A stretch of 64,000 nt of DNA. It comes from a virus. The stretch lies in the IMG/VR virus record IMGVR_UViG_3300023179_000072, positions 17,338-81,337 of that record. The stretch is one strand, 5' to 3'. Both the position numbers and the translations under genes were made by a program. The notes under the pieces are model-generated. The model was given only the letters and a program-made list of their open reading frames with translations, had not been told where the DNA came from and did not search any database. Every line of letters begins with the position of its first letter. Within the stretch, counting starts at the first letter, position 1. Shown here in pieces: positions 58-64,000 of this stretch.

Positions 58-183
58 TTATTTAGTGCTTCTAGCATTGTCTTTTGGCAATAAATCATTA
101 TCTTGTTTATAATTAGGATTAGATGGCCTACCATTTCTAGCTAAATATAAAAAGGCTTTAACACGCGCTATTCCACCAATCAT
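58..183 (-). CDS. Small basic protein, unknown (41 aa)
   Basis: A 41-codon frame starts with MIGGIARVKAFLY and ends NARSTK. It overlaps the preceding 26-codon frame by 26 nt in another register, so only one of the two may be translated. It is the last frame of the operon that begins near position 1352. No family recognised. Confidence 0.35.
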   Translation of the reverse strand: MIGGIARVKAFLYLARNGRPSNPNYKQDNDLLPKDNARSTK

Positions 184-471: not shown

Positions 472-668
472 TCTTTTTCTCCAATAGTCTTATAAATATA
501 ATCGGCCAAACCCTTCAAATCTTCCCTAGATAATGGTGGTTCATCAAAAAATCCGTTTCTAGCATGAAAAGCGACATCATAATCTTTAGTTCTTTGATTA
601 ATTGGATTTTCTCTTTTCTCAATAAAGAATTTTAGATAATCACAAGTATAAGGATTAGTATATTTCAT
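468..668 (-). CDS. Hypothetical protein with KGLADYI C-terminal module (66 aa)
   Basis: The start at 668 is preceded by GGGAGG at good spacing. The C-terminal segment SREDLKGLADYIYKTIGEKE is closely related to the end of the 64-aa protein at 4856-5050 (TKEELKGLADFINNYLEKNN) and to remnants near 4467 and 4783, so it belongs to a small paralogous family. Function unknown. Its stop overlaps the next start. Confidence 0.7.
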   Translation of the reverse strand: MKYTNPYTCDYLKFFIEKRENPINQRTKDYDVAFHARNGFFDEPPLSREDLKGLADYIYKTIGEKE

Positions 669-39400: not shown

Positions 39401-40663
39401 CGCTATTGTTAGGATATTTGTAGGAGCTTCTGTTGGTGTTGTACAATTATTAGAATCAGGAATGACACTATTACTATTAACACTATATTTAGTATCATTA
39501 ATATTATATATAGCTCCAATTCTAAAAATATAAGAAGTTCCATTATTTAAATTTTTAAGTAGAATATAATTTAAAGTTGGATCTATATAATTTAAATAGT
39601 TATTCCAACTAATACCATTATTAATACTATATTGTATATTATATCCTAATACTTTTAATATATGATTATTAGGAAAGCTCCAACTTAAAAGAGCACTAGT
39701 ATCTCCACTTTCCGCCTCCACATTGAATGGTATATCCAACTTTACTTCACAGGACTCATAAGATCCTATACCAGCACTATTTATTGCAGCTACTCTAACT
39801 AAATATGTTTTATCAATAGTTAAATTATTAAGATTAATATTTGTATTTATAGAATTATTAATATAATCAACCCAATCTATTCCATTATTATTAGAATACT
39901 GTATACTATAATTAATAATTTCTCCGCCATTATCATCATCTGGTTTAGTCCATAATAATGATATACTGTTATTAGAATCAGCATGAGCAGATAAATTAGT
40001 AATATTATTTGGAATCGATATTTGTGTTCCTGTTGATGGAAATGGAGCAAGAATACTATTTATATTAAAATTATCGTTATATCTACATGATCCTACTCCT
40101 TTTGTAATTCTTAACTCATCTATATAGCCATTAAATGTTTCACTACCATAACTATGCATACCAGTACCAATATAAACTTCTCTAGAGTACCCCAAATCAG
40201 AAGCTGCTGCCCCACCACTAATTGATAAAGATTGGTTACCATTAATATATACGCTAATATTTCCATTATTTCTCACCAATGCTAAATGATTCCAAGCATT
40301 TAGGGTCACACTATTAGCTCCCCAATTCCAAGATGTGCCATTAAAATATAATTGGTCTCCATTTGTGCCCATTCTCCATAATAATCCACTATCATATCGT
40401 CCTATAGAAATAAGAGTTCTCCAATTAATATTATCTAAAGGATAAATCCACATCTCCACTGTAAAATCTTCTGTTCCAAATCCAAAAGCAGGATCGCTTT
40501 CTATAAAAACATACGGAGATCCACCGTTAGGAGCATAGTCACTTCGTCCACTTAGTTTTAAAGATCCCGATTCTGTACCAAATCTATCTTTATTCTTACT
40601 TATAAAAGCCCCATTATATAAAGTAACATTTTTAGGGGTTATAGATGAATCAATAATATTCAT
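36500..40663 (-). CDS. Tail fibre protein with multiple LamG and FN3 domains (1387 aa)
   Basis: The start at 40663 (MNIIDSSITPKNVTLYNGAF) follows TAAGGAT; it begins inside a LamG repeat whose first strand (KLLLHMDA) ends the previous gene. There are about six LamG modules (FTVEMWIYPL, LAFECWIYPT, FTIEMFVNF, FTIELWMRRA, FTIECWLYW), FN3 modules near residues 240-450, and TPTATPTPTPTPT linkers. Modules share 13-25-residue identities with those of the 43426 gene, showing duplication. One module (37198-37793) is GC-rich and flanked by 64-bp direct repeats. Probable carbohydrate-binding fibre. Confidence 0.8.
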   Translation of the reverse strand: MNIIDSSITPKNVTLYNGAFISKNKDRFGTESGSLKLSGRSDYAPNGGSPYVFIESDPAFGFGTEDFTVEMWIYPLDNINWRTLISIGRYDSGLLWRMGTNGDQLYFNGTSWNWGANSVTLNAWNHLALVRNNGNISVYINGNQSLSISGGAAASDLGYSREVYIGTGMHSYGSETFNGYIDELRITKGVGSCRYNDNFNINSILAPFPSTGTQISIPNNITNLSAHADSNNSISLLWTKPDDDNGGEIINYSIQYSNNNGIDWVDYINNSINTNINLNNLTIDKTYLVRVAAINSAGIGSYESCEVKLDIPFNVEAESGDTSALLSWSFPNNHILKVLGYNIQYSINNGISWNNYLNYIDPTLNYILLKNLNNGTSYIFRIGAIYNINDTKYSVNSNSVIPDSNNCTTPTEAPTNILTIAGDSEAYLIWDEISDINSGKSPLKYIVEYSIDGGSIWNEYITPTPTPNQCKCVLLLHFDGEDGSNVFIDSSNIPKTLILSEPGNPVQFKWFAKFGNSMITNNGWIYSEYDSDFNINDSDLAFECWIYPTQSSGRYGIYATSGGSGDHAKFVVHIDSLVPKIHINNLPNANDLYLSANSQVVVNQWNYIAFSRASNIWRWYINGNFAGSGFNNSIITFYTEPTYIGYGGENYFPSFVGYIDELRLTIGSGSALNLISDSNIAIPTAPFSSDCDAYITPTATPTPTATPTPTPTPTSNQCQDCVLLLHFDGNDGSTNFIDSSCYNSSITPYNNAKISTNQSKFGGSSLYVNGTNDSYISIPDDTKFDLGLNNQPFTIEMFVNFIDNTDKVLISKGASQGEWNYVNGLQYNLFVENNTLYWQWLNAMAYPGSPSWGNIAINQPSSQTWHHIAVVYDGNLTSLFVDGNLQSQASGSYYSVTENAPLIIGKHPASQYVLNGYIDELRIVSKAVYTNNFTPPNVPFSDCDPYINNVSLLLHMEGNGSSFTDSSGTPKTVTANGNATQSSAQCKFGSQSAAFDGIGDYLSASLPGFDWSGDFTIELWMRRAAGGGSVQTFFEAGNIRGGVGGMNVYVTPNGTLYWNNALTGAIAGGSVGVDAWTHIACVRYVGTNSMYQDGTLIGTSTQTFPVTNSGISIGSAPNYGFNFSGFIDDLRISSMARYTSNFVPPTAPFPDYCNPSNVPFSDPDPYINNVSLLLHMDSGNGDTNLIDSSINSNVVNAINGAAITNQIGKFNNSLDCSSWGKKAIVNNSSSIQFGTQNFTIECWLYWTGSISGYYTWGSIASTATAPNPGGWYFLLDTNYNNGVNNVLMWIDETSSFLPGNISVVPNQWNHVAVVRDNGTIRMYINGIYCGGGSSSANINDNLPLAIGGDNGNAGYILGYFDEFRITKGVARYNDNFTPSDAPFINPK
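37134..37197. repeat. 64-bp direct repeat, left copy
   Basis: Nearly identical to 37794-37857 (TCCATGTGTAACAGTAGCGA ... ACATTTG), offset exactly 660 bp. It encodes the NVSLLLHM start of a LamG module and flanks the GC-rich cassette. Confidence 0.9.
37198..37793 (-). other. GC-rich LamG cassette inserted in an AT-rich gene
   Basis: A roughly 600-bp segment with GC-rich codons encodes one complete in-frame LamG module (GDFTIELWMRRAAGGGSVQT, GVDAWTHIACVRYVGTNSMY). The surrounding gene is extremely AT-rich. It ends sharply at the direct repeats, as expected of cassette exchange by homologous recombination. Its base composition matches the right end of the window. Confidence 0.85.
37794..37857. 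repeat. 64-bp direct repeat, right copy
   Basis: Right-hand copy flanking the GC-rich LamG cassette. Confidence 0.9.
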
Positions 40664-40673
40664 TATTTTATCC

Positions 40674-43409
40674 TTATGCGTCCATATGAAGAAGAAGTTT
40701 TGTTTTATTATATAGATTATCTGTTGCTCTAGGAGCAACATTTACAGCAGAAGATATTTCGCTGTATGGTCCAATTCCTGCAAAATTAATATGAGCTATT
40801 TTAAAAATATAAGTAGTATTATTTTCTAAATTAACTATATTTATAATATCATTTAATAGATAAGATATAAAATTATTCCAAGAAGATCCATTATCACTAG
40901 AGTATAAAACAGAATAACCTTTACTAGGCGAAGAATAAGTTGTACTTATATTTGGATTTATAGCTATAAATACTTGCTTATCATCTGGTATGATATTAAT
41001 TATTTGTGGAATATCAGTTATAGTAGATAATTCAACAATATTGCTATATGGTCCAGAACCAACACTATTAGTAGCTTTAATTCTAAATAAATATGAATTA
41101 TTTGTGCTTAAATTATATAATTGTCTATTATTAATACTATTATTAATATTAGCACTATATTTAATATAGTCTATATGCGAATATAATTCATTACTACAAT
41201 TATTGCTTTTAATATGATTATGAGAAAAATTCTTAAAACTATTACTAAATATATCATTATAATAAGTTTGTACTATTCCATTTATATTTATAGCTAAATT
41301 TTTTAATATAGGATTTATTGATATCTTAATAGTATTAAAAATTCCTGGATCAGAAAAAATTAAACTATCATGCAAAGACCAAACTGTAGATTGTCCTTGT
41401 GGTTCTATACCTACCACAACCCTAGATGGATAATTAATACCTAATGCTGAATTCCACTCTGTTTCTTCTGTTCCATAGCTATTATAGTATATTTTAACAG
41501 ACCCTAAATCATTATAAAAAACTATACTAGGATTTCTATTAGTATCAAATGTACTAAGAAAACTGATTTCAAAATCAAATAAATTTTGATCTTCAATAAA
41601 ACTATAAGAACTAAAATTATCTTGAGAATTACAGCAAAGTGTTATTCTATAATTGTTAATACTACAATTATTACCTGATAATATTTGAAAATTGTTATTA
41701 AAATTTACTAATTTATTTCGAGTATTTAGAGTTATAGTTTTTGTATCGCTATAAATATCAGTATATTCTATCCAAGAATCTCCATTATCATTACTATATT
41801 CTACAATATAATTATTTATACTAATAATATTATTTTTAGATATTGGATTTGGATAATTTGGATTATTCCATGATAAATTAATAATATTATTATATTCTAT
41901 GAGAGAAAGATCCAAGGGTTCTGAAGGAATAGTTGGAGGTGATCCAAAATCAGGATAAGGACGATATGATACTGTAAAATTAGGATATATACCATTATAT
42001 ATACGATATCTTGCTACCCCTTTAGTAACTCTAAATTCATCTATATAACCAGTAAACATCTGATTTCCAGTAGTATCACTGCCAATATATGCAGATGCTA
42101 TTGATGAATACTGTCTATCATCATTAATCGTAGCTGATACAGCTCCATTAACATATAAATTTAAAATACCTGAAGTTTTTACTAGTGCCAAATGTGTCCA
42201 TGTTGATAGTGGTATAGATGGCCCATTAATAATATTTTCATTATTATTAGCTACTACTATATTTCCTGAAGATGTGTTAGCATATATAGCTACTCCCTCA
42301 ACCGTTGAATCTTCATATCTTCTATTATCAAATAATATTTGATTATCATTTTTATTAGATAACCAAACCCAAGCTTCTATAGTATAATCTTCTGATCCAA
42401 AACCTAATCTTTCACTATTTTCAATAATTATATAATTACTACCATCAAGATACAAACTATTACCTCCCATAACGCTAGTATTATTACTAATAATAGGATT
42501 ATTATATGGTATTATATTATGTTTATATATCGAATAATCAACTAATAATTTATTTATATCATTGTCATTATATGATGATATCTCAAAACTATCTATATAT
42601 CTTGCTATTTTTTTGGTTACTCTAATATTATCCATATATCCAATAAAAGAATACTCAAAATTAATTAGTTGTCCAATTAGAGGATTAGATCTTTCACAAT
42701 TTATATCTTGTGAAAATACCATAGTATTATTTTGTATTTGACCGTCAATAAATAATCTACATAATCCGTCTTTTCTTGTAACTGCCACATGTGTCCATTT
42801 ATTAATTTGTATATTAGTATTTGATTGAAGTCTTGTATTTCCATAAACTCCACCAGGAGTAAAATCTAAAACAGAACCATATATACCAAATATATAAGAA
42901 TTATATGAAATTTCATTTCTTGTTTCTATAAATGGAGAATACGAAGAGTCCAATGAAGTAGGATATATCCATAACTCTATTGTGAAATCATCAGTTCCAA
43001 AACTTACACAATCAGAAGATCCTATCTCTAAATAAGAATAATCTTTTCCATTAAGATATAAACTTGTATTACCTTCTTTTTTTTCATCTGATGATAATTT
43101 AGCATCTCCTGCTCCTATAACAGCATTATTATATTTTGATATATCTCTAAAATCTATACTATTATTTTCTCCTTCCATATCCATTAATAAAGATGTATTA
43201 TCTACATAAAAATTATCCATATGTATTAACAAAGATGTATCATAATAATAATCGTCAGTATAATATGTTGGGGTTACTAATACGTATCTACTGAATAAGC
43301 CGTCTTTATTATTGTTTACAGCAGCAACTCTTACTTTATACGTAGAATTATTTTTTAATCCTCTTATAGCAATATTAGTATTAGTATTATTAGTAGTAAT
43401 AGTATTCAT
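40674..43409 (-). CDS. Tail fibre protein with LamG and FN3 domains (911 aa)
   Basis: It begins with the second half of an FN3 domain (RGLKNNSTYKVRVAAVNNNK) and ends with the first strand of a LamG domain (NKTKLLLHMDA), so both ends cut through domains. Between them are LamG modules (FTIELWIYPT, YTIEAWVWLS), an additional beta domain near residues 600-740 and FN3 repeats. The next gene resumes the LamG domain 11 bp later. The four fibre genes look like one giant fibre split into coupled frames. Confidence 0.75.
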   Translation of the reverse strand: MNTITTNNTNTNIAIRGLKNNSTYKVRVAAVNNNKDGLFSRYVLVTPTYYTDDYYYDTSLLIHMDNFYVDNTSLLMDMEGENNSIDFRDISKYNNAVIGAGDAKLSSDEKKEGNTSLYLNGKDYSYLEIGSSDCVSFGTDDFTIELWIYPTSLDSSYSPFIETRNEISYNSYIFGIYGSVLDFTPGGVYGNTRLQSNTNIQINKWTHVAVTRKDGLCRLFIDGQIQNNTMVFSQDINCERSNPLIGQLINFEYSFIGYMDNIRVTKKIARYIDSFEISSYNDNDINKLLVDYSIYKHNIIPYNNPIISNNTSVMGGNSLYLDGSNYIIIENSERLGFGSEDYTIEAWVWLSNKNDNQILFDNRRYEDSTVEGVAIYANTSSGNIVVANNNENIINGPSIPLSTWTHLALVKTSGILNLYVNGAVSATINDDRQYSSIASAYIGSDTTGNQMFTGYIDEFRVTKGVARYRIYNGIYPNFTVSYRPYPDFGSPPTIPSEPLDLSLIEYNNIINLSWNNPNYPNPISKNNIISINNYIVEYSNDNGDSWIEYTDIYSDTKTITLNTRNKLVNFNNNFQILSGNNCSINNYRITLCCNSQDNFSSYSFIEDQNLFDFEISFLSTFDTNRNPSIVFYNDLGSVKIYYNSYGTEETEWNSALGINYPSRVVVGIEPQGQSTVWSLHDSLIFSDPGIFNTIKISINPILKNLAININGIVQTYYNDIFSNSFKNFSHNHIKSNNCSNELYSHIDYIKYSANINNSINNRQLYNLSTNNSYLFRIKATNSVGSGPYSNIVELSTITDIPQIINIIPDDKQVFIAINPNISTTYSSPSKGYSVLYSSDNGSSWNNFISYLLNDIINIVNLENNTTYIFKIAHINFAGIGPYSEISSAVNVAPRATDNLYNKTKLLLHMDA

Positions 43410-43425
43410 TTGTTTTATATTAATC

Positions 43426-46400
43426 TTAATTAGTAGTAATATTTCCAGTAATTAAACCACACCCATTAGACGTTATATTTCCAATAAATATATTTGTAAA
43501 TGTAATATTGTCCATACTCCCAGAAACAGTAAAGTTAGATCCTCGTACTCCATCGCCATATGTAGAATAAATTTTTGCTGCTGTTGGTAATCCTATTACT
43601 CCATCTCCCAGATCAAGAGTATATGAAGATCCGACTCCTGGTATCTCTCCGCTATCAGAGCAATTATCATCAGTAAATACTACAACATTTACATCTATAT
43701 TATCAATAGTTAATATAATTCTTGAACATCTGGGGTGATGAGACTCTGTGATACTAGTACTAGTATATTGTAAATATCTATATCCTTTAGGAATATTCGA
43801 AGGGGTTGGCGTCGAAGTTTTAGTTGGAGTTATGGTTAGAGATACAGAAGGAGACGGAGTTGGAGTTGGAGTAGATTCAATTTGTTCCTCAAATGCGCAA
43901 ATTCCAAAAGTACCCGTGCCCCCACCATATTTCCAGTATTGGATCCATAAAGTTTCTCCCGGAGTTCTATCGCTTAATGATATAAGAGGTTGATATCCAG
44001 GACCAGAATCATCGTCGCAAGTTATTAAATTTAAATTATTACAATCGCTTCCAGAATAAACAGCCATAGCTCCATCTATTATACCTATACCTTGTATAAT
44101 TACAGATCCGGATTCCGGAACTATTAAATAGAACCATATACTATTATTATCTGAATAGTTGGCGCACGGAGGTATCCAGCCACTGATATCTAAGTATCCA
44201 ATATTATTATAAGTTAAAGGAATACAAGATGATCTATTAACAGACAATTGTATTGCATTACAAGGATAAATATTAATTTTTTCTATCATTTCATATTCTA
44301 CTATATAATGGTCGATATTATCATGAATAAAATCTAAAGAATTATAAAGCGTTATATTTATATCTATAGTATTATTTGATTCTATAGCTATTAAATCAGA
44401 AACTATATTTTGCTTTTTTCTAGAATCTCTAAAAACAAATTGGTTTAAAGAACTATTTGATGGAATAAAATTATAAGTATAAACAGCAACTCCTTTACAA
44501 ATACGAAGATCATCTATATATCCTCTAAATTCATTGCCTATTCTAACTTGACCGCTAAATCCTGACGAATATACTGTAGATTCTAATAAAATACCATTTA
44601 AATACATAGATATAATATTTGAGTCTCTAACAAGACAAATATGGTTCCATGTATATCCTTGTGCTGTTATAGTGTGTCCTCCACCTAAGATATAATTATC
44701 ATTTCCAAAGAAAAATAATCCTCGATAATCGTCGTGTAACCAAAGACTATGATTACCAATAAATACAATTCCTGGCTGTCCACCATACAGGTCTTTTGGT
44801 CTGGTATCATATATCCAAAATTCTATAGTAAAATCTTCTTTTTCATCAATTACAATATTTTTATCTATTAATAAATAATCTTTCTCCTCAAAGTATCCAC
44901 TACTTAATCCAAATTTATTTTCATCTTCACTAATTTTTACATTACCATAACAGGTTATTGGTAATTGGTATTTGCTACTATCTACAAAATTATTGGTATT
45001 ATTCTGGCCCTCAAAATGTAGTAATAAAGATGCTGGTATACCATTAGGATCAGAATTATCAAATGGATTATTTGGTGGTATAAAGTCATTATCATAACGT
45101 GATATACCTTTGGTTATACGGAATTCATCAAAATATGCAAGAATATAACCATCATTTCCATTATCCGCACCTATTGCTAAAGGTAGACCATCATTTATGT
45201 CAGCCGACGAAGATCCTCCTCCGCAATAAATTCCATTAACATACATTTTTATCACACCACTACTACGAACTACAGCTATATGAGTCCATTCATTACTAGG
45301 TATAGAAATATTACCATTTAATGGTCCTGATGTTTCATCTATCCATACTAATCCATTATTATTATTAGTATCCAATATCCAGCGCCATCCGTTAGTATTT
45401 GGGGCCGTAGCCGTAGAAGCTATTGAGCCCCAAGTATAGGAACCAGAGATACTGCCTGTCCAATATAACCAGCACTCTATTGTAAAATCATTAGTTCTAA
45501 ATAATATAGAAGAGCTATTATTTACAATAGCTTTTTTACCAGATGACGAACAATCCAAAGATTGTTCGAATTTACCAAGGTTATTTGTTATCGATGCTCC
45601 ATTAATACCATTAACAATATTATTGTTTAATGAACTATCATATAGAGTTGTTGTTCCATTAATACCGTTCATATGAAGTAATAAAGAAACATTAGAATTA
45701 TAGGGGTCATAATTTTCTAATTGAGTTGTTCTGGGAGTAAAATTAGATATATAAATTGCTTTATTATTATTTATAATCAATTCATCTATATAGCCTAATA
45801 ATGTATATTGATAACCAGCTATAGGATGTTTTCCTATTATTAGAGGAGCATTTTCACTAACAGAATAATATGAGCCATTAGAGGTTGTTTGAATTTCTCC
45901 ATCTATAAATAATGAAGTTAAGTTTCCATCATAAACAATTGCTAAATGATGCCAAGATTGTATACTTGGCACAGACGCAAATATCTCGCCATAAGAATTA
46001 TCACTGTTTAACCATCTCCAATAAATATTTTCATTTTCTATTGACAACGTATACTGTATACCATTTATTGAGTTCCATTGATTAATCGAAGCTCCTTTTG
46101 ATACTAAAAATTGATCAATATTATCTTCTAAATTAATAAATAATTCTATTGTAAATGGCTTATTATTTAAACCTAAATCTAAATTTATACTATCCTGTAT
46201 TAAAAGATAAGAATTATCAACACCCGGTATATATAGACTTGAACTACCTAAATATTTCGTATTATTATCTAGTATCACACCTCCATATGGTGTGACTGTA
46301 AAATTATTTATAGAACTATCAATAAATGTTCCATCAGGATTAATGTTATCAAAGTGCATAAGTAAAGATGTGGTATAATTAGTTGAAATTATATCTAATA

Positions 46401-47367
46401 GAGTAGGAGTATTACTAGGCGTTATTGTAATTGTGGGTGTTCTGGTATTTGTTGGTGTTGTTCTTGGAGTGTGGGTATTCGTTGGCTCTATAAATGATGT
46501 ACTTGTGGGAGTTAGTCCGGGAGTAGACGTACTTGTGGGAGTTAGTCCGGGAGTAGACGTACTTGTGGGAGTTAGTCCGGGAGTAGACGTACTTGTGGGA
46601 GTTGCAGTAGATGTTCTTGTTTGAGTTCTTGTATTTGTTGGTGTTCTTGTAGAAGTTTTAGTTTGAGTCGGTGTAATTGTTTGTGTTGGAGTGACAGTTT
46701 GAGTACTTGTTTGAGTTTGAGTTACTGTTGGAGTACTTGTTTGAGTTGGCGTAACAGTTTGAGTTGGAGTTAGTCCGGGAGTATTTGTTCGAGTAGGAGT
46801 CAAACTAATTGTCGGAGTTGCTGTTGGATCGTTTGTTGGAGTTGGTGTTTTTGTCGCTGTTTTTGTAAGAGCAGGAGTTTTTGTAGGAGTTATAGTTTGT
46901 GTATTACTTGGTGTTGTTGTTATTGTAGGAGTATTAGTAGATGTTACTGTAGCTGTTATTGTAGGAGTTGCAGTAGATGTTGAAATTGGTGGACATATTC
47001 TTGTTTGTGTTCTTGTTACTGTTCTTGTTGGAGTGGGAGTTCTGGTATAAGTTCTGGTTAATGTTCTCGTGGGTGTATTTGTACGAGTTAAAGTAGGAGC
47101 TATCGTTGGTGTTCTACTCGCATCAGGAGTAGGACACATAATCGATAGTGATTCTGTAGGTGTTACAGTTTGTGTAGGAGTTACTGTTGGGGTTGCAGTT
47201 TGTGTTACTGTTGGTGTTGGAGTTACAGTTTGTGTAGGAGTTACTGTTCGAGTTGCGGTCCTTGTAGGAGTTAGTGTTATGTCTAATATTTTATATAATG
47301 AACCAGAATCATTTATATTTTGAATAGAATCATCATTATTAATATCTGAATTATCATTATATATCAT
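43426..47367 (-). CDS. Tail fibre protein: Thr/Pro-rich stalk, LamG domains, PPC- and discoidin-like end (1313 aa)
   Basis: Residues about 28-330 are a mucin-like Thr/Pro repeat (TPTQTVTPTPTVTQTATPTV), including three identical 30-bp units. Four LamG modules follow (FTIELFINLE, FTIECWLYWT, FTIEFWIYDT). About residues 1080-1190 resemble a pre-peptidase C-terminal (PPC)-type domain (SVNRSSC..DISGWIPPCANYSDNNS, TCDDDSGPGYQPLISL). The last 120 residues look discoidin-like. First and longest of the fibre genes. Confidence 0.75.
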   Translation of the reverse strand: MIYNDNSDINNDDSIQNINDSGSLYKILDITLTPTRTATRTVTPTQTVTPTPTVTQTATPTVTPTQTVTPTESLSIMCPTPDASRTPTIAPTLTRTNTPTRTLTRTYTRTPTPTRTVTRTQTRICPPISTSTATPTITATVTSTNTPTITTTPSNTQTITPTKTPALTKTATKTPTPTNDPTATPTISLTPTRTNTPGLTPTQTVTPTQTSTPTVTQTQTSTQTVTPTQTITPTQTKTSTRTPTNTRTQTRTSTATPTSTSTPGLTPTSTSTPGLTPTSTSTPGLTPTSTSFIEPTNTHTPRTTPTNTRTPTITITPSNTPTLLDIISTNYTTSLLMHFDNINPDGTFIDSSINNFTVTPYGGVILDNNTKYLGSSSLYIPGVDNSYLLIQDSINLDLGLNNKPFTIELFINLEDNIDQFLVSKGASINQWNSINGIQYTLSIENENIYWRWLNSDNSYGEIFASVPSIQSWHHLAIVYDGNLTSLFIDGEIQTTSNGSYYSVSENAPLIIGKHPIAGYQYTLLGYIDELIINNNKAIYISNFTPRTTQLENYDPYNSNVSLLLHMNGINGTTTLYDSSLNNNIVNGINGASITNNLGKFEQSLDCSSSGKKAIVNNSSSILFRTNDFTIECWLYWTGSISGSYTWGSIASTATAPNTNGWRWILDTNNNNGLVWIDETSGPLNGNISIPSNEWTHIAVVRSSGVIKMYVNGIYCGGGSSSADINDGLPLAIGADNGNDGYILAYFDEFRITKGISRYDNDFIPPNNPFDNSDPNGIPASLLLHFEGQNNTNNFVDSSKYQLPITCYGNVKISEDENKFGLSSGYFEEKDYLLIDKNIVIDEKEDFTIEFWIYDTRPKDLYGGQPGIVFIGNHSLWLHDDYRGLFFFGNDNYILGGGHTITAQGYTWNHICLVRDSNIISMYLNGILLESTVYSSGFSGQVRIGNEFRGYIDDLRICKGVAVYTYNFIPSNSSLNQFVFRDSRKKQNIVSDLIAIESNNTIDINITLYNSLDFIHDNIDHYIVEYEMIEKINIYPCNAIQLSVNRSSCIPLTYNNIGYLDISGWIPPCANYSDNNSIWFYLIVPESGSVIIQGIGIIDGAMAVYSGSDCNNLNLITCDDDSGPGYQPLISLSDRTPGETLWIQYWKYGGGTGTFGICAFEEQIESTPTPTPSPSVSLTITPTKTSTPTPSNIPKGYRYLQYTSTSITESHHPRCSRIILTIDNIDVNVVVFTDDNCSDSGEIPGVGSSYTLDLGDGVIGLPTAAKIYSTYGDGVRGSNFTVSGSMDNITFTNIFIGNITSNGCGLITGNITTN
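46501..46590 (-). repeat. Tandem 30-bp repeat, three perfect copies
   Basis: Unit ACTTGTGGGAGTTAGTCCGG GAGTAGACGT occurs three times with a partial fourth; encodes LTPTSTSTPG. Perfect identity implies recent expansion and likely length variation between isolates. Confidence 0.9.
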
Positions 47368-49667: not shown

Positions 49668-50147
49668 ATGAATATAAATAATTTTACTATTATCGTTGAT
49701 ACTCGTGAACAAAAGCCTTGGACATTTAATAATTATACAGTAGCTAATAAAAAATTAGATACTGGAGATTATAGTATCGAAGGACTAGAAAAAATATTTA
49801 CTATTGAGCGAAAAAGAAGTGTTAGTGAAATCGCTAATAATATTTCAGAAAAACGCTTCTACGATGAATTAGATAGGATGAGAGATTTTAAACATAAATT
49901 TATATTGTTAGAATTTAGTCTTAATAGTGTTTTAGATTATCCAGTAGGATCTACAGTACCTAAAAGACTATGGAATAACCTTAAAATAACTGGTAAATAT
50001 GTTTTGAAATACTTAATAGAAATTAGTATAAAATATGATGTTCATATAATATATTGTGGATCTTCAGACAATGCTGAAGAAATGGCTATTTCCATAATGA
50101 AAAGAATGGTTGAAAAATATGCAAGATCACAAACTGAAAATTTATGA
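49668..50147 (+). CDS. ERCC4-type nuclease (159 aa)
   Basis: The motif VDTREQKPWTF...LDTGDYSIEGLEKIFTIER KR contains the GDxnERKx3D catalytic signature of the XPF/ERCC4 family in slightly altered form (GDYSIEG..TIERKRSVSE). It should cut branched DNA, for example to clear replication forks before packaging. It overlaps the terminase gene by 29 nt. Confidence 0.9.
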   Translation: MNINNFTIIVDTREQKPWTFNNYTVANKKLDTGDYSIEGLEKIFTIERKRSVSEIANNISEKRFYDELDRMRDFKHKFILLEFSLNSVLDYPVGSTVPKRLWNNLKITGKYVLKYLIEISIKYDVHIIYCGSSDNAEEMAISIMKRMVEKYARSQTENL

Positions 50148-52146
50148 GGAAGCTTGGCTTGGACTTGGTGATCTTGATAAGTTAATTATCAATGACAATC
50201 CAATGATAGGCAGATCCAAATCCGATATAGAGAAACCAGATTTGCACCTATTAAGACTATTAAGAGATCCAAAATATTTAGGAAGCACTTGTAAACTATT
50301 ATTTGACATAGAATTACATCCTATACAGATTGTTTTATTACAAGAATTCTGGTATACTCCTTTTCCAATGTTTATTGCTACTCGTGGTTTTGGTAAAAGT
50401 TTTATACTCGCCCTATATGCTTTGCTTAAATGTATCTTTATTCCCGGTACTAAAATTGTTATTGTTGGTTCAGCATTTAGACAAAGTAAAATTATTTTTG
50501 AATATATGGAAAATATTTGGAATAACAGCGCTATTTTACGTAGTATTTTTACTGGAAATAATGATGGTCCTAGAAGAGATGTTGATAGATGTACCATAAG
50601 ATTAGGAGATAGCTGGACTATTGCCGTGCCTTTAGGAACAGGAGAAAAAATTAGAGGTTTAAGAGCCCATATAATTATAGCAGATGAATTTGCTTCTATC
50701 TCTCCTGAAATATACGAAACTGTGGTTTCGGGTTTCGCTGCTGTTAGTGCTAGCCCAATACAAAATGTTAAAGAAGAAGCTCGTAAACAGGCTATGATAG
50801 CAGATGGATTATGGACAGAAGAACTCGAAGATATTCAAATTAAAAAGAACAATCAGGCTATTATCGCAGGTACAGCGGATTATAGTTTTAAACACTTTGC
50901 ATCATATTGGAAAAGATATAAATCTATTATAGAAAGTTGTGGAGATAAAAATAAATTAGAAGAATTATTTAAGGGAGAAATACCAGAAAGCTTTAACTGG
51001 AAAGATTATTCTATTATTAGAATACCCTATGAATTAGTACCTAAAGGATTTATGGACGATAAACAGGTATCTAGATCAAAAGCTACTATACATACTGGTA
51101 TATATAATATGGAATATGCCGCATGTTTTACAGAAGATAGCGATGGATTCTTTAAAAGAAGTCTTATTGAGAGCTGTGTGTGTAATGAAACCAAACCAAT
51201 AATTATTGGAGAAAAACCCATAATATTTGATGCATCAATAACAGGAAGCCCAAATCTGCAATATATTTATGGAGTTGATCCAGCATCAGAAAAAGATAAT
51301 TTCAGTATTGTGGTATTAGAACTTCATTCAGACCACTCTAGAATAGTATATTGTTGGACAACAAATAGAAATAATTTTAAAGAAAGACAAAAAACAGGAT
51401 TAGTTAAAGAATATGATTTTTATGGATTTTGTGCTAGGAAGATCAGAAGCTTAATGAAAACTTTCCCATGCTACAGAATAGGAATGGATGCTCAAGGTGG
51501 TGGAGTAGCTATAGAAGAAGCACTTCATGATCCTAGAAATTTGGAAGAAGGAGAAAGCCTAATATGGCCAGTAATAGAATCTACAAAATATAAAGAAACA
51601 GATGATAATCAAGGTCTTCATATTTTAGAATTAGTTCAATTTGCTAGAGCAGACTGGACTACTCAAGCTAATCATGGATTGCGTAAAGACCTAGAAGATA
51701 AAATTATTTTATTTCCAAGATTTGATCAATTAAGTTTAGCATTGGCTCTAGATAAAGAAAATCAAGATATTATGGAAACATCTTTTGATAATTTATATGA
51801 TTCAGAAAGTGAGTGCATATTAGAGATTGAAGAATTAAAAAATGAATTAACTACTATTATTATGACACAAACTAGTGGTGGCTCAGGAGCTAGAGACAGA
51901 TGGGATACTCCTGAAGTTAAAACTCCTAATGGTAAAAAGGGCAAACTAAGAAAAGATAGATATAGTTCACTAGTTATAGCAAATATGTTAGCTAGACAAT
52001 TAAGTAGAAGTTCTGAGCCAATTCAATATGATATTATTGGAGATAATCTTGCTAATCTGGAAAAACAAAAAGGAACTATGTATAGAGGGCCTAATTGGTT
52101 TACAGAAGAAGCTAATAATAATATATATAGAGGTATTTACAGGTAA
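50119..52146 (+). CDS. terL: Terminase large subunit (675 aa)
   Basis: The ATPase motor has Walker A at about residues 87-95 (ATRGFGKSF) and Walker B at about 184-190 (HIIIADEF), with an adenine-binding-type segment before (HPIQIVLLQEFW). The C-terminal nuclease is RNase H-like: YIYGVDPASEKDNFSIVVLE and later RIGMDAQGGGVAIEEAL supply acidic metal ligands. It pumps and cuts DNA at the portal. The ATG at 50119 is preferred to an in-frame TTG at 50110. Confidence 0.95.
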   Translation: MQDHKLKIYEEAWLGLGDLDKLIINDNPMIGRSKSDIEKPDLHLLRLLRDPKYLGSTCKLLFDIELHPIQIVLLQEFWYTPFPMFIATRGFGKSFILALYALLKCIFIPGTKIVIVGSAFRQSKIIFEYMENIWNNSAILRSIFTGNNDGPRRDVDRCTIRLGDSWTIAVPLGTGEKIRGLRAHIIIADEFASISPEIYETVVSGFAAVSASPIQNVKEEARKQAMIADGLWTEELEDIQIKKNNQAIIAGTADYSFKHFASYWKRYKSIIESCGDKNKLEELFKGEIPESFNWKDYSIIRIPYELVPKGFMDDKQVSRSKATIHTGIYNMEYAACFTEDSDGFFKRSLIESCVCNETKPIIIGEKPIIFDASITGSPNLQYIYGVDPASEKDNFSIVVLELHSDHSRIVYCWTTNRNNFKERQKTGLVKEYDFYGFCARKIRSLMKTFPCYRIGMDAQGGGVAIEEALHDPRNLEEGESLIWPVIESTKYKETDDNQGLHILELVQFARADWTTQANHGLRKDLEDKIILFPRFDQLSLALALDKENQDIMETSFDNLYDSESECILEIEELKNELTTIIMTQTSGGSGARDRWDTPEVKTPNGKKGKLRKDRYSSLVIANMLARQLSRSSEPIQYDIIGDNLANLEKQKGTMYRGPNWFTEEANNNIYRGIYR

Positions 52147-56009: not shown

Positions 56010-56462
56010 ATGGCTCTAAAACCAGATCGTATTGAATCTTACACTGATATCTCATTTTTTTGTGATACAGTATCTGAGCGTGGCGGTATAGTATCCCATG
56101 TTACCGGCGGTAGCGGTGTAAGCATGGATGATGCTAATTCTGTTGTCAGATATGCGACTAATCAATCAGGCACTAAGCCAGCAGGCTTACTATTGAACGA
56201 TGTTGTTAATATTGATTTAACTAGACAGCATATCAATTGGAATAAAGATGAAGTCCAAGTTGGTGGTAAAGTTACTCTGCTTCGTCAGGGTCAAGTAACA
56301 ACCAATATGGTAGCTGCTGTAACTCCAGCAATTGGTGATGATGCATACTATGGCGCTAGTGGATTACTAACCAATGTTAGCACTAACAGTGTTAAGGTTG
56401 GCAGATTCCTAAGCGTCAAAGATGTTAATGGTTATGTTAAAGTTGACATCAATATTACCTAA
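56010..56462 (+). CDS. Head decoration/stabilisation protein (150 aa)
   Basis: MALKPDRIESYTDISFFCDT VSERGGIVSH.., then GTKPAGLLLNDVVNIDLTRQ, KVTLLRQGQVTTNMV, IGDDAYYGASGLLTN: beta-rich Gly/Val-rich protein between protease and capsid genes, the usual site of decoration proteins. AAGGGAGAG before the ATG. Higher-GC codons than its neighbours suggest high expression. Confidence 0.75.
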   Translation: MALKPDRIESYTDISFFCDTVSERGGIVSHVTGGSGVSMDDANSVVRYATNQSGTKPAGLLLNDVVNIDLTRQHINWNKDEVQVGGKVTLLRQGQVTTNMVAAVTPAIGDDAYYGASGLLTNVSTNSVKVGRFLSVKDVNGYVKVDINIT

Positions 56463-56484
56463 TTTTATAATGGAGAATAAACTT

Positions 56485-57489
56485 ATGACCACAAATAGAT
56501 TTGAACCCACACCAGAACTAACAGATCTTCTAGTACGTTCTGGTTCACAGAATAGAGAAGTTAGTTTAGCAGCCTGCCATGAGTTTGCTAAAGCTCTTGA
56601 GCTACCATTGCGTAAAGGTATTCTAAGCGGCGATATTCTAAGTGGTCTCTTTGAGCCAATCAAATTGGCCCCAGGAGCTACCCCAGAATTCCCACTAGAC
56701 TTTCTTGCTCCAGGTAGCGAAAAAGATTTTGTTGCTTATGTTATTCCTAATCACGGTTATATCCCAGAAAGACATGTCGAAGGCGATTATGTCATGGTTC
56801 CAACATATGATGTTGGCGCTAGTATTGACTATCTCCTAAAGTATGCTCGTGATGCTCGTTGGGATGTTGTTGGTCGTGCTATGGAGGTTCTAGAGGGTGC
56901 TTTTGTTAAGAAGATGAACGACGACGGTTGGCACACATTGCTAGCCGCTGGTGTTGATCGTAACATTGTTGTATTTGATAGTGATGCTGCTAATGGCCAG
57001 TTTACAAAGAGATTAGTCTCTCTCATGAAAACAGTAATGAGACGTAATGGCGGCGGTAACTCTACAAGTATTAACAGAGGCAAACTGACTGACCTTTATA
57101 TCTCGCCAGAAAGTATGGAAGATATCCGTAATTGGGGTATTGACCAAGTTGACGAGATTACTCGTAGAGAAATCTATGTTGCAGATGATGGCACTCTAAA
57201 TCGTGTATTTGGTATTAACCTACATGATCTTGATGAATTGGGCGAAGGCCAGCAATATCAGCTATTCTATAGCGATATTCTCGGAGCTTCACTACCCGGT
57301 TCAAAGAGCGAGCTTGTTGTTGGCCTTGATCTTCGCAATCGTGATAGTTTCATTATGCCAATAAGAGAAGAAGTACAGATCTTCGAAGACGATACTTTAC
57401 ATCGTCAGCGTAGAGCTGGTTACTATGGACATGCTGAAGTAGGCTTTGCCGTGCTAGATAACCGTAGAGTTCTTCTAGGCGCCGTCTGA
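56485..57489 (+). CDS. Major capsid protein (334 aa)
   Basis: The start at 56485 follows GGAGAATAAACTT. MTTNRFEPTPELTDLLVRSG, LFEPIKLAPGATPEFPLDFL APGSEKDFVAYVIPNHG, then a long helix and GKLTDLYISPESMEDIRNWG with C-terminal REEVQIFEDDTLHRQRRAGY YGHAEVGFAVLDNRRV: the arrangement of HK97-fold capsid proteins of large phages. Followed by a strong terminator. Codon use is clearly less AT-rich than flanking genes. Confidence 0.9.
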   Translation: MTTNRFEPTPELTDLLVRSGSQNREVSLAACHEFAKALELPLRKGILSGDILSGLFEPIKLAPGATPEFPLDFLAPGSEKDFVAYVIPNHGYIPERHVEGDYVMVPTYDVGASIDYLLKYARDARWDVVGRAMEVLEGAFVKKMNDDGWHTLLAAGVDRNIVVFDSDAANGQFTKRLVSLMKTVMRRNGGGNSTSINRGKLTDLYISPESMEDIRNWGIDQVDEITRREIYVADDGTLNRVFGINLHDLDELGEGQQYQLFYSDILGASLPGSKSELVVGLDLRNRDSFIMPIREEVQIFEDDTLHRQRRAGYYGHAEVGFAVLDNRRVLLGAV

Positions 57490-58302: not shown

Positions 58303-60393
58303 ATGCCAGCCCTCACCACTATTCAGTTAAGAAGAGGAACATCAGCTCAATGGGCTAGTTCAACAAATGCATTAGCTCAAGGAGAAATGGGCTATGATAC
58401 CACGATTAAAAAATTCAAAATAGGAGATGGTACTAGTTTATGGTCTAGTTTACCATGGGCAAATATAACAGGATCAGATTTTGTAGCTGGTAGCGGTATT
58501 AATTTATCTTATAATTCGCCATCAGGATCAGTAACAGTTTCAGTATCAGGATTATCATCATCTTCTATTAGCGATTTTAATAGTAGTGTTAGCGGATTAT
58601 TACCTGTTAAAAGTATCACAGCTGGTAATAATATTACTATTACTCCTTCTGGAGACAAAAATTTTGTTATTAGTTCACCAGTAAATTCAGCTACTGTTCA
58701 GGATCTTATAGGATCCACTATAGTTGCAGGTAGTGGCATAAGAACAAGTTATGATAGTATTAATAAGGTAGAAACTATATCGGTTAGCGGATTAAATGCT
58801 TCTTATATTAGTGATTTTAATACTACTGTTAGCGGATTAGTAAATGGTATATATGCTCCATTAGTTAATCCAGCTTTAACAGGAACTCCCACAGTTCCTA
58901 CAGCAGCTGTTGATACTAATACTAATCAAATAGCTAGTACCTCATTTGTTCTTAATCAAGCATCATCTAGCACTCCACTAGCTAATGGAAGTGCTGCTGT
59001 GGGTATTTCAACAAGATATGCTAGAGCTGACCACGTTCATCCAACTGATTCATCAAGAGCAGCTTTGTCTGGTGCAGTATTTACAGGATCAGTTTCTATT
59101 CCTAGTGGTACTGGTAATTTTAATACTTTAACAGTAAATAATACTTCTGTTAGTGTTAGTGGTCATACTCATACATCAGCAAATATTACAGACTTTAATA
59201 GTGCTGTTAGTGGACTATTAAATGTAAAAAGTTTGGCTCAAGGAAGTGGTATTGGAATAGTTAATAATGCTGGAGTTCAAACTATTAGTGTTACTGGTAT
59301 TCCAAGTTCTTTTATAACAGATTTGGGCAACTTAGCTACTACCCAAGTTATTGGCAGAACAGGAATTGCTCTAACATATGATTCTGTTAGTGATATTATG
59401 TATATTGATGTTTCTGGGGTGTCTTTTAGTGGACATAAACATGTTTGGGGTGATATTACTGATGCTTCAACTAAAGCCTCATTAACAGAATTATCTTATT
59501 TATCCGGTGTTGTTCCTGGATCAGCAAGTGCTAGTAGAGCTTTGGTGGTAGACTCTAGTAAAAATTTAACAGGTATTAATAGTTTAATTACAGCTAGTGA
59601 TTTAACTGTTGGAGGTAATCTTACTGTTCAAGGAACCACAACAACAGTTAATAGTACTACTGTTAATATTGGTGATAATATAATCAGAGTTAATACTAGC
59701 GGATTAAATACTGGTGGGCTAGAAGTTTATACTGGTAGTACTACTCAATCGGTATTATGGAATAATACATCTAATAGATGGGAATTTAGTGGTGGAAATA
59801 TTTATACTAGCGGTAGTTTTATAGGAAGTTTAAGCGGAAATGCTAGCACTGTTACTAATGGTATTTATACTACAGATGTTGGAACTGTTACTAACTCTAT
59901 GTTGGCTGGTAATATAGCTAATAGTAAATTAGTAAATAGTTCTGTTACTATTGGTTCAACCCCAGTAGCTCTTGGTTCAACAATAACATCAATATCTGGA
60001 CTATCAACAGTAACATCTAATACTTTTGTTGGATCTTTGAGCGGCACAGCCACCAATGTTATAACTAATGCTAATTTGACGGGTCCAATAACTAGTATCG
60101 GTAATGCTACTACCATATCATCAGGAGCTATAGATAACTCTCATATTAGTTCATCTGCTGGTATATCTTATAGTAAACTAAATCTTTCTAATAGTATAAC
60201 TAATAATGATATTAGTAGTAGCGCAGCAATAGCTATTACTAAATTAGCTAGTAGTGGAATTACAATAGGATCAACATTTTATAGTTTAGGATCAACAGTT
60301 TCATCATTAAGTGGCTTAACCAGTATTGGTGGATCTAGTTCGTCAAGCCCCACCACCTTGTCATACTGTGTTATTGATGGCGGTACACCCTGA
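58303..60393 (+). CDS. Mtd-type tail fibre protein (696 aa)
   Basis: The N-terminal LTTIQLRRGTSAQWASSTNA LAQGEMGYDTTIKKFKIGDG TSLWSSLPW is the major tropism determinant N-terminal fold of many fibres. Then repeats of AGSGI..YD...V.VSGL...I.DFN..VSGL, with SGHTHTSANI (candidate metal-binding HxH), then ..SYLSGVVPGSASASRALVVD. Trimeric fibre shaft is likely. Ends LSYCVIDGGTP. Confidence 0.85.
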   Translation: MPALTTIQLRRGTSAQWASSTNALAQGEMGYDTTIKKFKIGDGTSLWSSLPWANITGSDFVAGSGINLSYNSPSGSVTVSVSGLSSSSISDFNSSVSGLLPVKSITAGNNITITPSGDKNFVISSPVNSATVQDLIGSTIVAGSGIRTSYDSINKVETISVSGLNASYISDFNTTVSGLVNGIYAPLVNPALTGTPTVPTAAVDTNTNQIASTSFVLNQASSSTPLANGSAAVGISTRYARADHVHPTDSSRAALSGAVFTGSVSIPSGTGNFNTLTVNNTSVSVSGHTHTSANITDFNSAVSGLLNVKSLAQGSGIGIVNNAGVQTISVTGIPSSFITDLGNLATTQVIGRTGIALTYDSVSDIMYIDVSGVSFSGHKHVWGDITDASTKASLTELSYLSGVVPGSASASRALVVDSSKNLTGINSLITASDLTVGGNLTVQGTTTTVNSTTVNIGDNIIRVNTSGLNTGGLEVYTGSTTQSVLWNNTSNRWEFSGGNIYTSGSFIGSLSGNASTVTNGIYTTDVGTVTNSMLAGNIANSKLVNSSVTIGSTPVALGSTITSISGLSTVTSNTFVGSLSGTATNVITNANLTGPITSIGNATTISSGAIDNSHISSSAGISYSKLNLSNSITNNDISSSAAIAITKLASSGITIGSTFYSLGSTVSSLSGLTSIGGSSSSSPTTLSYCVIDGGTP

Positions 60394-60421: not shown

Positions 60422-63175
60422 ATGGTCTCATTTTTTAGTTTTGGTAATAAATTTAAATTTAATTCAAATACTAATAAAGTTGTAATATCAAATAATAGTT
60501 TGCTCAATACTAATTCAGCAGCTATAGGAGCAGCAGCATTTTGGAATGGTGGGTTAAATTTTAATAGTGTGGGTACTAATGGTAAAAGTAGTAGTTATGG
60601 GACTTTTGATCAAACAGGATTAGCTTGGGAATGGTGTGATGCTAATTCTACTAGTAACACATATAAGGTTATTCGTGGAGGAGATATTAGTAATACTGGT
60701 GGAATAGCCAACTACTATAATAGTGATAAAAGTAAAAGATACTTAAAAACAACAACTGGAGGAGATACTAATCCGGTATCTTTTGTAACATCTCCTAATA
60801 GAAACAAAGGAAAACCACAAGATCAAGATTGGAGTGGTCGTATAGTATCAATATCTAATCCACTCAGTTTAAATAATTATGTTACTATAGGAAATACTAA
60901 TAATTCTAGTGATACTAATGGATATGGATCAGTTAGCTATTCTTACCAAATTAGCAAATATTTATTAACTAATGATGAATATTGTGCATTTTTAAATCTT
61001 AAAGCGGTTTCTGATCCTAATCAGTTATATGCCACTCAAATGAGTACCGAAAGAGTAGGAGGCATAGTAAGATCAGGGGTCTCAGGATCATACTCATATT
61101 CTGTTAAAACTAATATGGGTAATAAACCAGTATATTTTTTAAGTTGGTTTAGTTTAGCTAGATATTGTAACTGGCTACATAATGGAATGGGCTCAGGATC
61201 CACAGAAACTGGAGCATATACTCTTAATAATGCTTTAACTGGTATTATTAATAAAAATGTTGGAGCTAATTATTATATACCAAATGAAAATGAATGGTAC
61301 AAAGCTGCATACTATAAAGGAGGCAGTTCTAATGCTGGATATTGGAAATTTGCTACACAAAGCGATAGTATTCCTCAAATAGTCGCATCAACATTAAATG
61401 GTGATGGAACTATCAGAAATGTTAGCATAAAACCAGTTAATACTATAGGATCTAATGTTAGCGTAACTGGTATTAATGATAGTATATATAATGTTGGTAT
61501 ATCAATAAATTATGCTCAAATTAGTAGTAGCGGAGTTACAAAAGTTACTCCAGTAACATTAAATGATCCTAAATTACCAGTTAATTTTAGTTTAAGTAAT
61601 AGTTTAGGCAAATATAATATATCTACTACTTCATCAAGATCGGGTAATATTGATATTTGTTTTACTTTACCATCTACTATTAGTTTAAGTACTTTTAATA
61701 AAACTAAAGTATTTCATACCTCATCTGGAATTACAACTAATGTTACCATAACCACAGGAGCTAATGCTCCAAATTTCTCTAATAAAACTATATGTGCTAG
61801 AGTTAGTAATTTTAGTGATTTTCATATTATACCAGAAAATGATAATTTTAATTATGCTATTCCTTCTAATGTTAGTGGATCAGTTAGTAATGGGAGTGTT
61901 AATTTAAACTGGAATATGAGTGATACTACAGATATATTTGATTATAGCATTAAATATAGTAGTGATAGTGGTAATAGTTGGAGTGAGTATAATCATTTAC
62001 CAAATTCTGGTTTATCATTAGTTGTTGATGGATTAACCAACAATACCTCATATCTATTTAGCGTGGCAGCTATTGGATTATCTGGCATAGGTAATTATTC
62101 ATCCTATAGTTCATCATTAACTCCAGTAGCTAGTGTTCCTGATATTGTTACCGGATTGTCTGGATCCCCAAATATTAATTCTGTAGATTTAATTTGGAAT
62201 GTTCCAAATAACAATGGATCAAATATAATAAATTATTCTGTTCAATATAGTAGCGATAGTGGCTCAACTTGGATTTCATCAAATGATCCGTTATATTTGT
62301 TTGCTGATGATGTTTCAACCACCAGAAATTTAACAGTTACAAACTTAAATTCTTCTAATAGTTATATTTTTAGAATATCTGCTATTAATAGTATTGGTTC
62401 TGGAAATTATAGTAGTTATAGTAATAGTATTATTCCATTAAGCAATATACCAAATTGTGATTTTGTTATTAGTGATACTATAACTATTAGTGCTACTCCT
62501 ACAGTAACACCATCACCAACACCAACAAATACTCCTGCTCCTAAATTTACTCCTATGTCAGTTTTACTTACAACCGGTGATACTTATACAGTACCATCCG
62601 GTGCTACTACAATGAAGGCTTGGGCGGTGGGTGGTGGCGGAAAAAATGTTGGCGGTGGTGGTGGAGGCTGCGCATACAAAACGTGGTCTGTTACTAGCGG
62701 CCAAACAATTTCCTATACTGTGCCATCTGCAAGAACAACAACAAATGGCAATGGAGGCTCGGCCACTGTTACCGCATCTGGGGTCACTATTACAGGCGGG
62801 GGAGGGGGAGGGGTAGGTTACTTTCAGCCCGGAGGAGGTTTCTCGGGAGGTGACGGAGGCGCTAATGGCGGTTCCGGTGGTAGTGTCGAGGGAGGAAGTT
62901 ATGGTGGCGCAGTGGGCGGAAATAGCGTTACGGCCTCTTGCGGCAGGAGAACAATGACCGACGTATCTGGACTAAAAGCCGCACTATCTCTTGCGGGTGT
63001 AAATACCACCGAAACCTGCGGCAGCACGGCTGCATTTGGCAGCGGCGCATATGGAAGCAAATATGCAAACCCCAGTTTGCTAAGTCCCGGCCTTGGCGGG
63101 GGGGCGGGGGAGGAAAATTATGGTCATACTAATTCAGGTGCAGGGGGCGGCGCGGTTGTGCTGTATTTCACATGA
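60422..63175 (+). CDS. Adhesin with circularly permuted FGE/SUMF1-like domain, FN3 and Gly-rich tip (917 aa)
   Basis: Residues about 38-142 (NGKSSSYGTFDQTGLAWEWC, VIRGGDIS, DWSGRIVSISNP) are normally the C-terminal half of the formylglycine-enzyme-like domain. Residues about 150-320 (VTIGNTNNSSDTNGYGSVSY, EWYKAAYYKGGSSNAGYWKF) are normally its N-terminal half, so the order is swapped. Two FN3 modules (about 485-680), a TPTVTPSPTPTNTPAP linker and a 200-residue glycine-rich domain encoded by GC-rich DNA follow. Likely host-binding. Confidence 0.8.
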   Translation: MVSFFSFGNKFKFNSNTNKVVISNNSLLNTNSAAIGAAAFWNGGLNFNSVGTNGKSSSYGTFDQTGLAWEWCDANSTSNTYKVIRGGDISNTGGIANYYNSDKSKRYLKTTTGGDTNPVSFVTSPNRNKGKPQDQDWSGRIVSISNPLSLNNYVTIGNTNNSSDTNGYGSVSYSYQISKYLLTNDEYCAFLNLKAVSDPNQLYATQMSTERVGGIVRSGVSGSYSYSVKTNMGNKPVYFLSWFSLARYCNWLHNGMGSGSTETGAYTLNNALTGIINKNVGANYYIPNENEWYKAAYYKGGSSNAGYWKFATQSDSIPQIVASTLNGDGTIRNVSIKPVNTIGSNVSVTGINDSIYNVGISINYAQISSSGVTKVTPVTLNDPKLPVNFSLSNSLGKYNISTTSSRSGNIDICFTLPSTISLSTFNKTKVFHTSSGITTNVTITTGANAPNFSNKTICARVSNFSDFHIIPENDNFNYAIPSNVSGSVSNGSVNLNWNMSDTTDIFDYSIKYSSDSGNSWSEYNHLPNSGLSLVVDGLTNNTSYLFSVAAIGLSGIGNYSSYSSSLTPVASVPDIVTGLSGSPNINSVDLIWNVPNNNGSNIINYSVQYSSDSGSTWISSNDPLYLFADDVSTTRNLTVTNLNSSNSYIFRISAINSIGSGNYSSYSNSIIPLSNIPNCDFVISDTITISATPTVTPSPTPTNTPAPKFTPMSVLLTTGDTYTVPSGATTMKAWAVGGGGKNVGGGGGGCAYKTWSVTSGQTISYTVPSARTTTNGNGGSATVTASGVTITGGGGGGVGYFQPGGGFSGGDGGANGGSGGSVEGGSYGGAVGGNSVTASCGRRTMTDVSGLKAALSLAGVNTTETCGSTAAFGSGAYGSKYANPSLLSPGLGGGAGEENYGHTNSGAGGGAVVLYFT

Positions 63176-63660
63176 GCGAGATTCTTCGGGCACCTAACGG
63201 AAACGCAATTCTGTTGACCCCTCGCGGCGGATCGCATTCGCTAGCGACAGTTGCAATGCAAGTGTTCTGGCAGAATTCATTTGTTGGCGAGCAGGGTCAT
63301 CCTGCGTGGTACTTCGGGGAGCAGGAAGCATGGACGGGCACCAATCGAAATGTAGGCATCATCGTCCGCAACCCAATTGAACGCTTCCGCAGCACGGTCG
63401 CTCATCGACCAGAGTTGACGCTGGAGGAACATCTCGCGCAGCCCGTCTACGGTCCGCTGACGAAGGGCAACTTTGCCCGTTACTTCCGCTTCGAGGATCA
63501 ACTCAACGAAGCCGCCGAATGGTTGGGCCTGCCGACGCCTCTACCGCAGGAGGACGCGAGCGACCCGGCACTCAAGCCGACGCTCACCGCAGAGCAAGAG
63601 GCCCGCGTGCGCGAACTCTACGCCGATGACATCGCCCTCTGGCAGTCCCTCCAGCCATAA
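63172..63660 (+). CDS. Sulfotransferase-like protein (162 aa)
   Basis: The sequence ILLTPRGGSHSLATVAM stands where sulfotransferases have the 5'-phosphosulfate loop, and VGIIVRNPIERFRSTVAH matches their 3'-phosphate-binding RxPxxRxxS element. ARVRELYADDIALWQSL at the end is also typical. Much shorter than catalytic family members and without a clear catalytic base, so activity is uncertain. ATGA overlap with the adhesin. It might modify fibre or host glycans. Confidence 0.6.
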   Translation: MSEILRAPNGNAILLTPRGGSHSLATVAMQVFWQNSFVGEQGHPAWYFGEQEAWTGTNRNVGIIVRNPIERFRSTVAHRPELTLEEHLAQPVYGPLTKGNFARYFRFEDQLNEAAEWLGLPTPLPQEDASDPALKPTLTAEQEARVRELYADDIALWQSLQP

Positions 63661-63665
63661 CGCGC

Positions 63666-63926
63666 ATGCTCCGCCCCCTCTACGCCCTGTTCGGTGCGCT
63701 GGCCGCCGCGAGCCTCACGGCGTGCCTGCCGCTCGGCGAGATGTGGCTGATCGAGCAGACGCCGCTGGTGCGATGGATGGCGGCGGACCCGGAGTACGGA
63801 TACGAGACGTATCGCTCGCTGGGCGTCGTGCTTCCGTGGCTCGCGACTCACAACGGCATCGCGGGCGCGGCAATCGGGTGGTGGTGCGGTGGACGGCAAC
63901 TGCCAGACAGCAGCAATCGCCGGTAG
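63666..63926 (+). CDS. Two-span membrane protein, DPxYGY family (86 aa)
   Basis: Two hydrophobic segments (LYALFGALAAASLTACLPLG and GIAGAAIGWWCGG) flank WMAADPEYGYETYRSLG. The loop motif MAxDPxYGYxxxR and downstream N.I.G..IGW match the 84-aa protein at 10902-11156, encoded there with AT-rich codons. It lies after the adhesin, a place where holins can occur; function unproven. Confidence 0.6.
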   Translation: MLRPLYALFGALAAASLTACLPLGEMWLIEQTPLVRWMAADPEYGYETYRSLGVVLPWLATHNGIAGAAIGWWCGGRQLPDSSNRR

Positions 63927-63973
63927 CGTGGGTGTAGGCATTTAGCCGGGCACGACCCGGGCCAGGAGGACAC

Positions 63974-64000
63974 ATGAGCCAGGTACGGATCCGCACGAGC
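63974..64000 (+). CDS. Gene start cut by the window end
   Basis: AGGAGG, 5 nt, then ATG AGC CAG GTA CGG: MSQVRIRTS continues beyond 64,000. GC-rich like its neighbours. Confidence 0.6.

Follow-up and report, generated by a model that had tools for sequence, protein, structure and literature searches.

Concanavalin A is a circularly permuted protein. Among phage proteins, circularly permuted DNA methylases have been noted (PMC7824862). The fold of the formylglycine-generating enzyme (FGE) type of C-type lectin (CLec) ranks among the chief binding scaffolds in nature. It is the one that usually carries the diversity created by diversity-generating retroelements, DGRs (PMC6328139, PMC5006420). 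Its two termini run side by side as antiparallel strands, and in the DGR variable proteins Mtd, TvpA and TaqVP the variable region (VR) occupies the extreme C-terminus (PMC6328139). The open-access literature (subscription papers were outside the search) yielded no description of a permuted FGE or C-type-lectin domain, and a survey of 224 jumbo-phage genomes reports no FGS domain at all (PMC7824862). Described here is a domain of this fold in an open reading frame (ORF) of 917 aa in the last 64 kb (the window, i.e., the whole stretch analysed) of the 81,337-bp IMG/VR virus record IMGVR_UViG_3300023179_000072. Very probably it is a genuine circular permutant of the FGE-type CLec domain and is carried by a virion protein, probably an adhesin, of a large uncultured tailed phage.

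As in circular permutants such as concanavalin A, the old termini of the domain were joined and the new termini were placed in a loop. Compared with the bacterial FGE/SUMF1 proteins (PF03781; Planctomycetota, Verrucomicrobiota), the N-half was about 50% identical and the strand and helix motifs were shared, whereas the halves were reversed in the phage, the old termini were joined and the proteins belonged to the virion module. With Mtd, TvpA and TaqVP the window protein shared the FGE-type CLec fold class (profile match to TvpA, 2y3c), variable loops at the equivalent site (placed from the position of the VR in CLec proteins; PMC6328139) and an Mtd_N neighbour; in contrast to them, the domain was permuted, the VR-equivalent loops were internal, and a reverse transcriptase (RVT_1) was found in 0 of 78 records (its own and 77 related ones, up to 244 kb; records may be fragments).

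Hidden Markov models (HMMs) of the C-half (89 positions) and of the N-half (186 positions) were built from 19 relatives (set A1). The window ORF gave one full C-block (aa 33–146, profile 1–89), followed by one full N-block (aa 152–333, profile 1–186); in a scan of the entire 81.3-kb record for a second copy of either half, the best other match had E of about 0.8. As the record holds no credible second block, no missing half lies on either side of the ORF or in an adjacent gene. A split gene was ruled out by the same scan. The Pfam match (PF03781) was restricted to the N-half (aa 173–310, profile 35–134 of 255, E 5e-9); residues 1 to ~150, in which the C-terminal half is encoded, were without a Pfam match, and the 917-aa protein had no PHROG match. 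Because profile searches detect half a domain (100 of the 255 positions of PF03781), such phage proteins are under-annotated.

The same swapped order was found in 97 distinct domains (<88% identical) on other IMG/VR contigs. After correction, the C and N profiles were separated by a gap of 6 in 64 of these 97 and of 4–9 in all but one, the typical junction being GFRIAS..N.....NFVTVGD; with so many distinct domains in this order, and 64 with an identical junction gap, the swapped order is not due to chance. Patterns on viral contigs: CN 92, CNCN 11, CNCNCN 4 and others, versus NC 26, truncated copies of one ORF in overlapping loci being taken as separate. Unpermuted homologues, N to C, were found in bacterial genomes with the A1 query (loci L120–L198); NC was counted 71 times, NCNC 8 times and NNC 3 times, isolated C or N blocks occurred in broken frames, and C before N on its own was never met among these loci. 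Several of the viral NC proteins had a PEP-CTERM-like tail (by eye in L020, L021 and L024), and a terminase match was present in 2 of 10 NC records searched, both short; the NC records in the viral collection may be bacterial DNA. The permuted proteins start and end at the linker that joins N to C in bacteria, so that little or nothing was lost. Each half was thus complete and in single copy, the old termini were joined and the new ones lay elsewhere; the N-half and C-half motifs of the PF03781 superfamily were conserved and its canonical N-to-C order was absent, which makes the domain a permuted relative and not a standard member of the superfamily.

The fold was approached with 98 permuted sequences (set A3) as input for profile and model, permuted sequences alone being used in the AlphaFold2 runs. 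The profile matched PDB chains of FGE, SUMF2, TvpA and EgtB; with 5aoh the order was crossed (query 28–91 to chain 199–263; query 174–258 to chain 76–161), and with 1y4j and 2y3c both halves were matched and crossed likewise, the match to the DGR variable protein TvpA (2y3c) crossing over as permutation requires. AlphaFold2 gave one confident domain (predicted local distance difference test, pLDDT, 86.4; predicted template modelling score, pTM, 0.88); the weak parts were loops (model residues 62–67 and 84–103), and the junction (model residues 111–120) had a mean pLDDT of ~98. Since the termini of CLec proteins are adjacent antiparallel strands, a joint at this place is sterically natural. The original prediction had read the blocks as swapped, the domain as circularly permuted and the junction as a normal C-terminus fused to a normal N-terminus. 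The swapped order was borne out by the single complete C- and N-blocks and the 97 relatives, permutation was supported by block order, crossed structure matches and the confident single-domain model, and the fused junction agreed with the HMM blocks, the conserved gap and the junction pLDDT. The coordinates predicted for the domain, 60422–61400, were nearly exact, its end lying near 61417.

In a quick tree of the two concatenated halves (51 permuted phage rows, a subset, and 63 others; four rows were left out, three of C-Ig-N-C phage proteins and a long one), the permuted phage domains formed one clade with an SH-aLRT (Shimodaira–Hasegawa-like approximate likelihood ratio test) support of 99. 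A second permutant (cp2), cut inside the N-half, was present in L200 and L112 in the order N132–185, C, N1–134; each part occurred about once, the domain was placed inside the permuted clade, and a SNPLSL-type junction resembling that of the window was re-used. The cp2 domain of L200 had no match in plasmids. The permuted FGE/CLec version is common, belongs to one phage lineage and has acquired a second cut point on one or more occasions. A large natural lineage that combines reversed halves with a further cut and apparent intermediates offers a rare series of forms for tracing and testing circular permutation by duplication.

Several results weigh against this account of fold and origin. The first AlphaFold2 model, from 19 sequences, was too poor for use (pLDDT 65). 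Foldseek against PDB ranked FGEs first with E ~2 over 66–72 columns, i.e., no significant match, and against BFVD nothing was found; the insignificance is plausibly because Foldseek aligns sequentially and the domain is permuted. The structure prediction and superposition proposed with the original prediction thus succeeded in the confident single-domain model and fell short in the Foldseek E-values, and superposition of the modelled window domain on the FGE fold is unproven. With the long and ambiguous rows kept in the tree, the clade of every permuted domain and the three C-Ig-N-C rows had a support of 84–87; the single clade depends on concatenating the halves of a sequence subset and on dropping four long or ambiguous rows. 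The N-block-only tree scattered the permuted group, with three label changes, and did not resolve a single origin.

The two ends of the fold are neighbouring antiparallel strands; in the phage lineage a turn of ~6 residues joins them, and the opening of the chain has moved to the linker that separates the N-half from the C-half. An N-C domain was probably acquired from a bacterial-type gene and tandemly duplicated, with later loss of the first N-half and the last C-half. Tandem duplication with terminal loss, as put forward in the original prediction, is supported indirectly and not proven: the N-C-N (cp2), C-Ig-N-C (L258, L260 and L262; "Ig-like" by eye) and C-N-N-C relatives, the last being L008 with a permuted domain (C-N) directly followed by a normal one (N-C), and the nested domain of L248 fit duplication followed by trimming, none of them being a proven ancestor. 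A broader reading is put forward tentatively, at a little under even chances, that in this phage lineage the CLec fold is handled as a topologically closed ring, opened anew again and again (ancestral cut, cp2, insertions, nesting). If so, re-cutting of the ring could reorient the binding face on the fibre and allow modules to be mixed without diversification based on reverse transcriptase. The domain is found in probable virion proteins together with FN3 (fibronectin type III), Ig-like, RCC1 and LamG modules and Pro/Thr linkers, and moved termini would be expected to change the presentation of the binding face on the fibre.

Insertions were observed in several relatives. In L248 (167–9355, aa 838–1414) a complete normal N-C FGE domain was inserted within the N-half of a permuted domain; in L013 (2119–5940), L014 (2021–5944), L016 (1–3537) and L017 (1626–5969), an insertion of ~160–290 aa separated the C-half from the N-half, at or close to the junction of the old termini (in L014 after the first strand of the N-half); in L249 (1490–6568), ~620 aa interrupted the C-half in the loop after the EW motif, i.e., in the variable-loop region.

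The window, L003, L005 and L045 shared one gene order: the major head protein came first, then a protein of ~135 aa, the Mtd_N fibre and the permuted protein. For L003 and L045, size and position were the sole grounds for recognising the first two. The gene following the permuted one also had Mtd_N in L005 and had fibre-type PHROG matches in L045. The relatives combined the permuted domain with RCC1 repeats, LamG and Pro/Thr linkers, with up to four copies per protein; the large records of the family, up to 244 kb, carried terminase genes. The region from RGG to GFR was highly variable in sequence and length across the permuted family, and its loops are located where CLec proteins bind ligand. 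Judged from its context, with capsid and Mtd_N fibre genes as conserved neighbours, the permuted domain is probably a non-catalytic adhesin or receptor-binding module displayed on the virion. It had no match among 50,697 annotated phage genomes.

Homology and the Pfam name would suit an active sulfatase-modifying enzyme carried by the phage. The catalytic cysteine pair of FGE, which lies between RGG and GFR, was present in 0 of 98 members (0 or 1 cysteine in every domain), so that FGE catalysis is unlikely, and the gene is placed among virion structural genes; the bacterial FGE/SUMF1 relatives sampled were likewise without the pair. The chance that the protein is such an enzyme is negligible. 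A variable protein diversified by a reverse transcriptase, the DGR link that the original prediction had raised with a reverse transcriptase to be sought outside the window, would account for the choice of scaffold, for variable loops at the VR-equivalent position and for the Mtd_N neighbour; no RVT_1 match was found in the 78 records, so that a DGR role is not supported, the VR-equivalent segment is mid-protein rather than C-terminal, and the claim is very improbable.

Interchain domain swapping, in which each C-half of a trimeric fibre would complete the N-half of the adjacent subunit, deserves somewhat more weight and is still improbable: phage fibres are often trimers, a short loop connects the halves and the AlphaFold2 model predicts a monomer only, whereas the junction was confident within that one monomer (pLDDT ~98, pTM 0.88) and the unit was kept in single-domain, multi-domain and nested contexts. 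Completeness of the halves, once each, a junction length conserved over 97 divergent domains and the confident joint model leave hardly any room for two unrelated partial domains, or decayed remnants of a tandem array, standing side by side by chance, even though tandem NCNC arrays exist in bacteria and in some contigs. Two unrelated partial domains were largely refuted by the family-wide conservation.

The features of the permuted-domain ORF and of its surroundings, as positions in the window, are collected in Table 1.

Table 1. Permuted-domain ORF, its parts and the neighbouring virion genes.
Feature	Position	Strand	Residues (aa)	Motifs	Evidence
ORF: permuted FGE/CLec domain, one further domain, two FN3, linker, C-terminus	60422..63175	+	917 in total		ORF call, Pfam
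C-terminal half of FGE/CLec domain, placed first	60518..60856	+	33-145	YGTFDQTGLAWEW, RGGDIS, GRIVSI	HMM C-block 1-89, E 8e-26
Loops variable in length and sequence, RGG to GRI	60683..60835	+	88-138		low model confidence
New junction, old C-terminal strand joined to old N-terminal strand	60854..60871	+	145-150	SNPLSL	
N-terminal half of FGE/CLec domain, placed second	60875..61417	+	152-332	VTIGN, TNDEYCAFLN, NENEWYKAAYYKGG, GYWKFATQS	HMM N-block 1-186, E 3e-84; PF03781
Two fibronectin type III domains	61862..62422	+	481-571 + 585-667		PF00041, 2 stretches
Upstream fibre ORF with Mtd_N domain	58303..60393	+	7-45 (Mtd_N)		PF18454, E 1e-14
Major head protein, upstream of fibre pair	56422..57489	+			phrog_2522, E 4e-4
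Terminase large subunit	50110..52146	+			phrog_2, E 2e-21

On the minus strand (36500–47367), three large proteins encoded side by side gave repeated PHROG matches of the baseplate-wedge type. The C-terminal portion of the 917-aa ORF consisted, by eye, of a Pro/Thr-rich linker and then a glycine-rich C-terminus. Where the glycine-rich part begins, still inside the ORF, the GC content rose from ~0.28 to ~0.60 and was high until the contig end (window 62450–64000); either a recent exchange in frame or a join in the assembly may be the cause. The 162-aa protein after the permuted-domain ORF had relatives in other viral contigs; one of these, L345, was on a 230-kb record that also bears a permuted domain.
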